Assembly: GCF_947387515.1 (NCBI RefSeq) | Contig: NZ_CANDOB010000001.1 | Coordinates: 930,001-994,000, forward strand | From: Alkalihalobacillus sp. CinArs1 | Lineage (GTDB): Bacteria; Bacillota; Bacilli; Bacillales; Guptibacillaceae | Length of the DNA: 64,000 nt | Direction: 5' to 3' | Shown here: positions 7,000 to 53,460 of the stretch, in pieces | Position numbering within the stretch: position 1 is the first letter of the stretch | How the letters are laid out: every line of letters begins with the position of its first letter | Translations under genes and position numbers: made by a program | The notes under the pieces: generated by a model | Databases searched by the model: none | What the model was told of the DNA's origin: nothing | The model's input: the letters and a program-made list of their open reading frames with translations, nothing else

Positions 7000-7200
7000 A
7001 TGTCAAGTGTCCATCCCGATCAGTAGTTCTCCATTATAAGTAAGCCTCATAATGACAGTTCGACATTTATTCAATGTCGCCCCAACAAAAATAATGTGAC
7101 GATTATTTCTGCTTCGGCAGATCTCCCTTTCGATGCTGATCATAGATGTCATTCTCCCAACACGTACTTATGAGTATCTGCTCCTCTACCTCATCGTATA
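7000..7200 (-). ncRNA. Lysine riboswitch (L box)
   Basis: Reading the minus strand from 7196, the L-box conserved pieces appear in order: GATGAGGTAGAGG-GC, AAAGGGAGATCTGCCGAAGCA, the ATTGAATAAATGT segment, ACTGTC and GGAGAACTACTGAT. These match the conserved core of the lysC leader of B. subtilis. The aptamer is followed by an intrinsic terminator, the usual OFF-switch arrangement: lysine binding would favour termination and lower expression of the permease. The exact aptamer ends are approximate. Confidence 0.93.
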
Positions 7201-10764: not shown

Positions 10765-11616
10765 TTAGTCGAAAAGATCAAGTTGTCTTGGGTTAAGGTT
10801 CGTATACTCGATATCAAGCATTCGAATCATTTCTTTCGCATTCCCCGACGCATGACCACCAGAATTATTATTGAATAGTATATACACATTCTTACATTCT
10901 TTTCGTAACTGCTCAATTCTTTCTTTCCATTCCTTGAGCTCATTATTGTCATACTCATACAGATAGCGAACTTCTCGCCACTTTTGATTGTTCCCAGGGT
11001 TCCGCCACCCATTAACATTTCTTCCATGAAGTCGTACAAGTACATCATCATTCGAAATCGTCTCCATGACGATTGGGATCGAACCTTCTCCAGCTTGAGG
11101 CTCATCACAGATTGAATGTATGTATCCTTGTTCCTCAAGAAAAGAAAGTGTTTTCTCCCGAAATGCCTCATGATACCAGGATTGATGTCTAAACTCTACC
11201 GCACAAGGGATATCTCCCATTCTTTCTTTACAATCTCGCAAAAGATTCACGTTATCTTTGTTCACATCAAACCATGGTGGAAACTGAAAAAGAACCATCG
11301 CAAGTTTTCCAGAACGTTGTAAAGGCACGATTGACTCCTTGAAAGCCTTGAACATAGCATCTCTCGTCTCAAAAGGAATCTCCCCCCGCTCGTGTCCTGT
11401 CATTCCCTGATAAGCTTTCACAACAAACTGAAACCCCTCAGGCGTCTCACTCGCCCATTTCTCATAATTTCTTATAGGTTGCACTGCATAAAAAGAAGAA
11501 TCAACTTCTACAACCGGAAAATGAGAACTATAAATCGATAGCTTTTCATTACTCTTTACACCCGGAGGATACAAATCATCATGATCCCCCCAACCAGTAA
11601 CACCTATGTATATCAT
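10765..11616 (-). CDS. yunF: DUF72 family protein (YunF)
   Basis: A 283-residue TIM-barrel-like DUF72 protein. Signature parts are IYIGVTGWGDHDDLYPPG at the N-terminus, YSSHFPVVEVDSSFYAVQP, FQFPPWF, VEFRHQSW and the C-terminal VYILFNNNSGGHASGNA. I choose ATG 11616 over the TTG three bases earlier because of its distance from GGGAAGG. The function of DUF72 proteins is not settled. It is divergent from the downstream reductase gene, with a repeat array between them. Confidence 0.85.
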   Translation of the reverse strand: MIYIGVTGWGDHDDLYPPGVKSNEKLSIYSSHFPVVEVDSSFYAVQPIRNYEKWASETPEGFQFVVKAYQGMTGHERGEIPFETRDAMFKAFKESIVPLQRSGKLAMVLFQFPPWFDVNKDNVNLLRDCKERMGDIPCAVEFRHQSWYHEAFREKTLSFLEEQGYIHSICDEPQAGEGSIPIVMETISNDDVLVRLHGRNVNGWRNPGNNQKWREVRYLYEYDNNELKEWKERIEQLRKECKNVYILFNNNSGGHASGNAKEMIRMLDIEYTNLNPRQLDLFD

Positions 11617-11687
11617 CAAATCCTTCCCTTCTATTTCTCTGCCTCTATTTTCTGACTTTAAAGGAGAAATAGCAAGGGAAAAACCCC

Positions 11688-12117
11688 GAAAAGCGGAGGT
11701 GGGCGTTTAGGTCCGACAGGCACTGGAACCATTTCGAATGAACACGCTTTTTGTGTTCAATCGAAATGGTGAAGTGACCCGAGGACCTGCCCCCTGCAGC
11801 TGGATCAGAAAGGCGGAGGCGAGCGTTTAGAAACGGAGATATTGGAACTCTTGAAATAGAACACGCTTTTTGTGTTCTGTTGAAAGAGTGAAATATCGTA
11901 GTTTCTGCGAGTCGCAGCTAGACCAGAAAAGCGGAGGTGGGCGTTTAGACCCGACAAGCGCTGGAATCCTTTCGTTTGAACACGTTCTTTGTGTTCAGGC
12001 GAAAGGGTGAAGCGACTCGAGGGTCTGCCAACCGCAGCTAGATCAGAAAAGCGGAGATGGGCGTTTAGACCCGACAAGCGCTGGAACCCTTTCGTTTGAA
12101 CACACTTTTTGTGTTCA
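11688..12117. repeat. Tandem array of ~120-bp structured repeats (3 full copies plus a truncated one)
   Basis: Copies begin with GAAAAGCGGAGnTGGGCGTTTAG (variants) at 11688, 11808, 11926 and 12046; spacing is 120, 118 and 120 bp. The fourth copy stops after its GAACACnnnTTTTTGTGTTC apical hairpin. Each full copy folds into one long arm: outer stem, an internal stem, the asymmetric loop GGA/GA, and an apical stem closed by GAACAC/GTGTTC. The stems differ between copies by compensating changes (for example GGTCC/GGACC, GAAAC/GTTTC, GACCC/GGGTC). Each full copy ends CTGC...GCAGCTnGAnCA. The array lies in a divergent intergenic region, so it is neither coding nor a 3' UTR of the adjacent genes. 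I recall similar short GC-rich dispersed repeats in other Bacillaceae, but cannot name a family. Confidence 0.92.
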
Positions 12118-12255: not shown

Positions 12256-13302
12256 ATGTTTAATAGAGATGTATTCGATGTAACGATAATTGGTGGAGGT
12301 CCTGCTGGGCTTTATTCTGCATTTTATGGTGGCTTAAGAGAACTAAAAGTCAAAATTATAGAATTCCAGCCTAAATTAGGCGGCAAGATCCATGTTTATC
12401 CTGAAAAAATGATTTGGGATGTAGGAGGACACAAGCCATTATCTGGTGCAGATCTCATCGAATCCTTAGTTGAGCAGGGATTAACATTCGACCCAGAAGT
12501 AGTTTTAAATACAAAAGTTGAAAGTATCACAAGAGATGAAGAAGGAATTTTCACTTTAAAGAGTGCTGAAGGTGAGGAGCACTACTCAAAAACCGTTATC
12601 GTCGCTGTTGGGAGTGGAATCCTAAAACCACAAAAACTTGAGATTCAAGGCGCAGAAAGGTTTGAAGTTTCTAACTTGAATTATACGATCAAGTCTTTGA
12701 AACATTTTAAAGATAAAACGGTTGTCATTTCAGGCGGTGGTAACGCAGCGATCGATTGGGCGAACGAATTAATACCTGTCGCAAAGAAAATATACCTTAC
12801 ATATAGAAAAGATGCTCTTACTGGCCATGAAGCACAAGTCTCAAAACTTAAAGAAAGCTGTGTAGACTGTATCTTTAACACTTCGATCTCTAAACTGATC
12901 GCTTGCTGTAACCATGAAACGATTGAACAGATCGAATTAACCAACCATGTTACAGGTGAGATTTCCTACCTCCCGATCGATGAAGTGGTTATTAATCATG
13001 GGTATGAAAGGGATTCTTCGTTAATTGGTAATAGTGATTTGAATATTGAACTAGTCGATCAGTTTTTTATTGAAGGAAATTCAACGAGTGAGTCATCTAT
13101 TCCAGGACTCTATGCAGCAGGAGATATCTTAAAACACGATGGAAAATTAAACCTTATTGCCGGTGCATTCCAAGATGCAGCAAATGCTATAAACAAGGCA
13201 AAGCTGCATATTCAGCCGGAAGCACAAGCGGTTGGCATGGTTTCTTCACACAACTCAGTGTTTAAGGAGCGAAATCGTGAGCTGATCAAACGAATGATAT
13301 AA
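12256..13302 (+). CDS. ycgT: Ferredoxin/flavodoxin--NADP+ reductase, TrxR-like type (YumC/YcgT family)
   Basis: A 348-residue two-dinucleotide-domain flavoprotein. The FAD motif IGGGPAGLYSAFYGGLR is at residues 12-28, the NADPH motif ISGGGNAAIDWANEL near residue 155, and the second FAD contact GLYAAGDI near residue 285. It lacks the CxxC redox pair of thioredoxin reductase, which places it with the ferredoxin-NADP reductases of Bacillus. A Fur box lies over its promoter, so I favour the iron-controlled paralogue YcgT over the housekeeping YumC. A plausible role is supplying electrons for iron release or Fe-S work under iron limitation. GGGGAGG precedes the ATG. Confidence 0.85.
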   Translation: MFNRDVFDVTIIGGGPAGLYSAFYGGLRELKVKIIEFQPKLGGKIHVYPEKMIWDVGGHKPLSGADLIESLVEQGLTFDPEVVLNTKVESITRDEEGIFTLKSAEGEEHYSKTVIVAVGSGILKPQKLEIQGAERFEVSNLNYTIKSLKHFKDKTVVISGGGNAAIDWANELIPVAKKIYLTYRKDALTGHEAQVSKLKESCVDCIFNTSISKLIACCNHETIEQIELTNHVTGEISYLPIDEVVINHGYERDSSLIGNSDLNIELVDQFFIEGNSTSESSIPGLYAAGDILKHDGKLNLIAGAFQDAANAINKAKLHIQPEAQAVGMVSSHNSVFKERNRELIKRMI

Positions 13303-33093: not shown

Positions 33094-33256
33094 AAAAAAT
33101 GCCTTTCCGCTATGAGCAGAAAGGCACTTGAAATCGATGTCTTTCTCTCATTTCTCAAAGCATCTGCTTTGCAGGAATTGGCACCTTCTCAAACACGCTG
33201 TTTGACGGTTGCCGGGCTTCATAGGGCCAGTCCCTCCACCTCTCTGAATAAGAGAT
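33094..33256 (-). ncRNA. SAM-I riboswitch (S box) of metNPQ
   Basis: On the minus strand the S-box core reads CTTATTCAGAGAGGTGGAGGGA-CTGGCCC, GAAGCCCGGCAACC, AAGGTGCCAATTCCTGC and a closing GAGAGAAAG. A terminator (TGCCTTTC.. GAAAGGCATTTTTT, about 33099-33127) follows. SAM binding should cause termination and lower methionine uptake. Confidence 0.95.
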
Positions 33257-50719: not shown

Positions 50720-50876
50720 TAAAAAAAGCCCACTTCAATAAGAAGAGGGCTTTTGCCTCCTCTTATCTCTCAGAATAGTAGCTATTCTGCAGGAAGTAGC
50801 ACCTTTTTAAGCTTCTTGCTTAAAGGTTGCCGGGCATCATCGGGCCAGTCCCTCTGCCTCTCTGGATAAGAGTGAT
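50720..50876 (-). ncRNA. SAM-I riboswitch between metY and the metY fusion
   Basis: Minus strand: CTCTTATCCAGAGAGGCAGAGGGACTGGCCC, GATGCCCGGCAACC, AAGGTGCTACTTCCTGCAGAATAG and GAGAGATAAGAG, the S-box core closed by an exact P1 (CTCTTATC/GATAAGAG). A terminator AAAGCCC...GGGCTTTTTTT (about 50721-50752) follows. It starts only about 15 bases past the metY stop, so it can act on readthrough from metX-metY as well as on any internal promoter. Confidence 0.95.
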
Positions 50877-53298: not shown

Positions 53299-53460
53299 AA
53301 AAAGCCTCTCTGAAAGACAGAGAGGCTGGATTATAGAAATCAGCTCCGCTTATCTTCCAGGCATTATACCTGCAGGAATTGGCACCTTTTCAAACCAAAT
53401 GGTTTGACGGTTGCCGGGCTTCATAGGGCCAGTCCCTCCGCCTCTCTAGATAAGAACGAA
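53299..53460 (-). ncRNA. SAM-I riboswitch of metX-metY
   Basis: Minus strand: CTTATCTAGAGAGGCGGAGGGACTGGCCC, GAAGCCCGGCAACC, GGTTTGAAAAGGTGCCAATTCCTGC and GATAAG, then terminator AGCCTCTCT/AGAGAGGCT plus TTTTT (about 53302-53327). A standard OFF switch for SAM excess. Confidence 0.95.

Follow-up and report, generated by a model that had tools for sequence, protein, structure and literature searches.

Small hairpin repeats such as REP, ERIC, BOX and bcr1 are known from bacterial genomes, and the movement of most of them is unexplained. ERIC elements of the enterobacteria are imperfect palindromes of about 127 bp with many intergenic copies; to our knowledge tandem mixed arrays are not the rule among them, and they belong to an order other than Bacillales. 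Integron attC sites are imperfect hairpins similar in size to the element reported here, with structure conserved over sequence and a strand-specific asymmetry. The gene-less REP/REPIN elements served by RAYT proteins are palindromic and dispersed, and are believed to be mobilised in the form of a folded single strand. REPs are described as 20–40 bp long with a GTAG or CGTC tag, and MITEs are defined by terminal inverted repeats of about 15–30 bp (PMC3733652). Within the Bacillales, accounts of bcr1 give a length of 147–167 bp and many intergenic copies in the B. cereus group (Okstad 2004, as cited in PMC6542083, PMC2267715 and PMC3446304), to which it is said to be confined, and link it to a TTTAT motif (PMC6542083). 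BOX of Streptococcus pneumoniae is presented as a modular element with a number of tandem units that varies between strains, distinct end modules (boxA and boxC), terminal inverted repeats and target duplications (PMC3049150).

The element analysed here lies in a 64,000-nt stretch of Alkalihalobacillus sp. CinArs1 (hereafter, the window), where TRF delimits a repeat with a period of 120 bp and 3.6 copies at exactly 11688–12117. In agreement with the preliminary description, three full copies and one truncated copy of a unit of about 120 bp occupy 11689–12117 on the + strand. Unit 1 (11689–11806, 118 nt, subfamily with GC.CTGGA), unit 2 (11809–11924, 116 nt, ATATTGGA subfamily) and unit 3 (11927–12044, 118 nt, GCGCTGGA subfamily) are followed by a 5' fragment of unit 4 (12047–12117) truncated just beyond the apical stem-loop. 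Linkers AG, also on the + strand, join unit 1, which ends in GGATC, to unit 2 (11807–11808) and unit 2 to unit 3 (11925–11926), and precede the fragment (12045–12046). The flanking genes are divergent, as had been stated: a DUF72 gene (10765–11619, − strand) on one side and a gene for a Pyr_redox_2 protein (12256–13302, + strand) on the other. The nearest relative found for this locus (G003, 83% over the gene) has an array there too, made up, by eye, of other units in a different order.

Each unit is a 117-nt imperfect hairpin with a basal AGC/GCT stem and short unpaired tails. Reading from the AGC/GCT foot, an outer stem and a second stem are separated by a GTTT bulge; beyond an internal loop follow a short stem, the GGA/GA loop and the apical stem. 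The element is palindromic, dispersed and gene-less like REP/REPIN, but it is 117 nt long with untagged AAAAGC and GGACA ends, and no Y1 gene accompanies it in its own genome. Nor does it have the ends of a MITE: at the foot there are just the AGC/GCT pairs, then an irregular stem, and the filled and empty rRNA sites described below show no flank-to-flank target-site duplication. Unlike the surroundings of attC sites, its arrays have no gene cassettes between units, and an integron was rejected, as no IntI scored above the TIGR02249 cut-off in any of 61 genomes (weaker matches, found in 61 of 61 genomes and 14 of 14 controls, are expected of other tyrosine recombinases). It resembles BOX, as described, in its variable number of tandem units and differs from it in that each full unit forms a hairpin complete in itself and that rRNA sites show no duplication. 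With bcr1 it shares being short, multicopy, intergenic and hairpin-forming, with mobile traits, in the Bacillales; bcr1 is described as confined to the B. cereus group and linked to a TTTAT motif, and the accounts cited above contain no tandem cassette arrays. A search of the open-licence literature returned no earlier description of the family, which does not prove that there is none. What is new is that the element spreads across the order, forms mixed tandem arrays and shows a division between hairpin and linker.

The element is dispersed over the order, with tens of copies in many genomes. The preliminary description had suggested a covariance-model search of the host and other Bacillaceae; a model built on 33 own-genome copies yielded 45 matches in the own genome, forming 18 arrays or single copies, and 45 to 60 matches in each of the 14 genomes of the genus. 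Outside the genus, 17 genomes of the order had 11 to 60 matches and 18 had 1 to 8, so that the element was matched in 49 of 61 genomes, 31 of them with at least 11 matches, all as lower bounds given that at most 60 candidates were scored per genome. Scoring more candidates raised the count from 2 to 24 in G031 and to 98 in G010, a closed relative. Under stricter filters, a phylum-wide sample of 149 genomes returned the own genome only (0 of 148 others). A relative of 144–148 bp with a different apical part occupies at least 119 pattern stretches in named Bacillaceae and is present, among the matches listed, in Neobacillus, Siminovitchia, Oceanobacillus, Virgibacillus and Pontibacillus, with no B. 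cereus group name among the 80 matches listed. The covariance model recognises a copy in all 20 loci tested from those 80, and in at least three of them (L210, L203, L220) forms of 144–152 nt and 119–123 nt adjoin or lie close together. A plasmid or phage element was rejected, as these searches were nearly empty: the window array and two of the 144–148 bp relatives had no plasmid match, the own-genome unit and one such relative had no phage match, and the only matches were a 26% partial one between the own-genome unit and a Leptolyngbya plasmid and a full-length one (75%) between another relative and an Anoxybacillus plasmid. The idea of a dispersed palindromic repeat with the traits of mobile DNA is supported by these results.

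The fold is strongly conserved. As single-stranded DNA, positions 11930–12049 fold at −28.5 kcal/mol (z −4.8 against 200 shuffles). Pairing holds in 97.6% of cells across the 33 own-genome copies; it falls to 80.4% after shuffling and to 34–46% when one arm is shifted by 1–3 columns. Both sides show change in 23 of 34 pairs, with 221 double-sided cells against 72 in shuffles. The fold-keeping paired changes first noticed in the window therefore proved real and general, since in a set of 70 copies 31 of 34 pairs covary and 95.3% of cells pair, in an alignment that was fitted to the covariance model and hence leans towards it. That set comprises 69 distinct copies from 29 loci, one per genome, 13 from the genus and 16 from other genera. 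The boxes that had been called fixed are so in part: AAAAGC, CG.TTA, TGGA/GAA and GCAGCT are nearly invariant, but the apical GAACAC/GTGTTC is replaced by GAGAC/GTCTC in 5 of the 33 own-genome copies, and the first T of GTTTAG is not fully fixed. Most of the 16 copies from other genera keep the end boxes and the bulged layout, and several have a CATAAGAC/GGCTTATG form instead of the GGA/GA loop. The preliminary description had allowed that the array might have no further copies and no significant covariation, and this clearly fails; a chance local hairpin or a simple tandem duplication as the whole story is ruled out by the 45 dispersed matches and the mostly unlike neighbours.

In rRNA spacers the element forms a discrete block, which sister sites lack and which is not accompanied by a target duplication. 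One of five 23S-5S spacers fetched from G010 lacks it and otherwise equals its filled sister, with CCTAAAAATATTGG in the empty spacer and CCTAAAAA-[CG-hairpin-CAT]-TATTGG in the filled one (also written CCTAAAAACG-hairpin-CATTATTGG); the inserted block measures 122 bp. Among seven 23S-5S spacers of G007, three are empty, two are filled with a block of 121 bp ending in TAT before TATTGG, and two carry a short hairpin. Rfam places 23S before and 5S after the site at the tested loci of both genomes. Different G010 operons hold two unlike hairpins at the same point, and G008 has two unlike hairpins in tandem within one rRNA spacer. Copies lie behind 23S in other genera as well (L078, L163) and, on our own reading of the sequence, behind a 16S end in G025. 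Short hairpins of about 36–60 nt were also seen in rRNA spacers of G007, G009 and G008 (L420, L421, L422, L423, L426), at the exact point that the full element occupies in other operons; apical deletion of full units may have produced them.

Within arrays, copies lie head to tail and neighbours are mostly of different subfamilies. Mean identity among 227 units pooled over G010, G009 and G011 is 0.69 for adjacent units, 0.74 for next-but-one units, 0.72 within the same array and 0.68 between arrays, and 9 of 142 adjacent pairs are at least 97% identical. The stem covariation originally reported between neighbouring copies accordingly stands as far as paired changes go, but these neighbours are for the most part members of different subfamilies and not diverged duplicates (0.69 against 0.68). 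Units whose best match belongs to a different array number 56 of 82 in G010, 52 of 72 in G009 and 36 of 53 in G011. Best matches of at least 97% fall within the same array for 18, 11 and 12 units of these genomes, respectively, and in another array for 6, 13 and 8; near-identical units inside one array indicate that in-place duplication occurs too. Same-subfamily units of one array are also more alike throughout than those elsewhere, which again shows duplication in place.

Linkers and outermost ends carry a locus-specific signal that the outer stem lacks. Once the subfamily is accounted for, units of the same array share bases beyond chance in the linker, at position 1 and, at the 3' end, at positions 113, 116 and 117; the signals at positions 18 and 60–61 are smaller (195 of 239 pairs used). 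Silence inside positions 21–97 is partly by construction, since these positions defined the subfamilies; the outer stem lies outside that definition and is a fair test. Within arrays, units of different subfamilies agree in the 3' end box (113, 115–117) at 0.548, against 0.320 when shuffled (0/1000), while the outer stem of 67 haplotypes shows no sharing signal (0.054 against 0.051 shuffled, 420/1000). Since end box and linker are locus-specific and the outer stem is not, these data point to an exchange of the hairpin from one side of its foot to the other. Linker ends also echo the left flank of their own locus (mean shared suffix 1.91 against 1.27, 0/5000). Target duplication was dropped as the source of this echo, as the filled and empty rRNA pairs show none; it may be a residue of older units, and duplication within arrays is compatible with it.

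On balance, we regard the element as probably a non-autonomous, gene-less mobile DNA hairpin that is inserted head to tail next to copies already in place, in arrays that tandem gain and loss then remodel. An enzyme encoded by the host or by the element would recognise the folded strand at the hairpin foot and place further hairpins next to existing ones, always in the same direction, either in the linker or at the AAAAGC edge; the repeated end boxes would then allow tandem gain and loss to alter copy number. A folded-strand mechanism is compatible with a block that lacks duplication, with the uniform orientation of units in an array and with the foot-to-foot exchange. Under this proposal, conservation of the fold would reflect the need of a hairpin to be intact in order to move, and not gene regulation by each copy, and the family carries the warning that paired changes between tandem copies need not imply an RNA function. 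A more specific and rather unlikely version is a gene-less cassette system, in which an undescribed trans-acting recombinase or transposase slots interchangeable single-strand hairpins one way between short locus-specific linkers. Such a system would formally resemble an integron or a CRISPR array but consist of hairpins only, and would, if real, operate with hairpin-foot precision across much of the Bacillales. This abundant, old and order-wide family offers a direct handle on movement: within one genome, rRNA spacers that are otherwise identical occur with and without a copy, and orthologous arrays that differ in units are available by the dozen. The linker/hairpin boundary points to exchange at the hairpin foot. 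Identifying the enzyme, if there is one, would explain a recurrent intergenic DNA component of these genomes.

The most serious rival, less likely as a full account, is that an ancestor had longer mixed arrays from which single units were lost through the repeated end boxes, so that species keep different subsets and insertion is ancient and mostly over. Evidence on this comes from a comparison of 32 G010 arrays with orthologous loci of G009 (32) and G011 (28), found via their flanks; the three genomes are 95.6–97.2% identical at one tested 3.1-kb locus, and flank pieces in the species pairs used are 81 to 100% identical. Flank-to-flank spacing differs by more than 60 bp at 26 of 32 loci in G009 and 22 of 28 in G011, and only 2 of 48 orthologous array pairs with at least two units each have an identical subfamily string. 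Some orthology remains, as orthologous arrays share subfamilies above chance (0.547 against 0.269). As a test of insertion polarity within arrays, first and last full units each agree between species in 0.188 of 48 pairs, against 0.092 and 0.046, respectively, when permuted, with neither end singled out as the one that receives new units. Loss is suggested by single-unit differences that leave only a 5' fragment (L124 in G011, L139 in G009), and the tandem pair of unlike units in the G008 spacer, one or other of which stands alone in G010 operons, fits it as well. Many G010 arrays end, by eye, in a shorter 5' fragment, and a terminal 5' fragment was recognised in 30 of 89 arrays, 29 of these ending between positions 33 and 71. 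At the 32 loci of G009, two have no unit (one with a replaced spacer, one retaining a fragment) and a third is a fragment only; no clean empty site was found there at an ordinary intergenic array. Members of a subfamily at other loci show the same similarity between species as within one (in the largest subfamily 0.923 and 0.924), and only 29 of 227 units have a copy at least 97% identical at another locus of their own genome, so recent copying is limited. The equal similarity within and between species is what makes differential loss a serious rival, and it probably contributes. Against it as the whole explanation, each of the 14 genus genomes has at least 45 matches, so that gain must balance loss at the scale of the genus; those 29 units do have near-identical copies elsewhere; and an earlier phase that placed unlike hairpins between locus-specific linkers would still be needed. 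At the end of one array (L027, ~1500–1640) we also observed the 5' half of a unit followed by the inverted 5' half of another, head to head.

We consider it quite unlikely that the arrays arose without an enzyme, by template switching in which replication is arrested at the foot of the hairpin and the nascent strand moves from one array to another at the short boxes AAAAGC and AGCT that they share, with arm-to-arm templated correction yielding the paired changes. The limits of the locus-specific signal do coincide with the hairpin-foot boxes, and G.T and A.C mismatches come nearer to balance (112 against 73) once the two loop-flanking pairs are set aside, as expected at the DNA level. However, under templated correction one would expect the irregular loops and the GTTT bulge to disappear, and they are kept in the genus and in most copies from other genera; switches within stems would leave mismatched chimeras, whereas 95.5% of cells pair across 229 units.

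A structured RNA, with copies working in transcripts as 3'-UTR or processing elements and persisting for that use, appears very improbable. Placement was assessed with simple ORF calls in 48 arrays (32 from G010 and, from the own genome, 16 of 18). With a same-strand upstream gene, 19 of 24 arrays start no more than 5 nt from its stop codon, as against 1 of 24 with an opposite-strand gene, and the copies right behind 23S ends and, on our own reading, a 16S end would also suit a role in transcripts. Yet orientation is largely independent of the neighbouring genes, with 12 arrays sense to both neighbours, 20 antisense to both, 12 convergent and 4 divergent, and other operons of the same genome have an rRNA spacer without the element. 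G.T mismatches exceed A.C overall (275 against 75), but most of this excess comes from the two loop-flanking pairs, and the bias was dropped as proof of + strand folding. A known RNA family was rejected, no Rfam 15 family being matched at gathering score. The preliminary description had offered an RNA or hairpin-DNA function, or a mobile palindrome; conserved structure and mobile traits are borne out, and a cis RNA role is not favoured, as 20 of 48 arrays are antisense and 12 of 48 sense to both neighbours.

For the mobile hairpin that we prefer, no mobilising gene was found. A search for the suggested TnpA-REP-like (Y1) partner did not support a Y1 transposase as the cognate enzyme, for lack of own-genome adjacency and of clear co-occurrence. 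None of the 45 own-genome units lies within 100 kb of either of the two Y1 genes of that genome (C1:1353754-1354086 in L031 and C1:1278553-1278885 in L032). Of the 49 genomes with the element 46 have Y1, as do 9 of the 12 without it; G027 and G057, with 30 and 17 copies, have no Y1. Y1 frames of about 190–225 aa occur in all 14 genus genomes. The first own-genome Y1 gene (RAYT-like; L031, 1108–1821 and flanks) has palindromic GGGACAGAGGGACAGGTACATTGTCCC and GGGGACAGGTTCCTCGTCCC repeats nearby and, by eye, GGGACAG palindromes of its own beside it, which look like a distinct REP-like family served by a transposase of its own. No such repeat was seen alongside the second (L032, 1291–1863).

Other short repeats adjoin the hairpin arrays in places. 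Spaced runs of very short motifs (such as TTAGCTAATAAA/TTGGACAATAA, CGCTGATA, TTCGCGGAAT), of which the first-named is absent from the window, were seen beside arrays at L007, L011, L132, L145, L153 and L157 and are possibly another type of dispersed repeat. The window also contains four ordinary riboswitches, one lysine and three SAM, all on the − strand, at 7016–7196, 33145–33254, 50760–50872 and 53347–53456.
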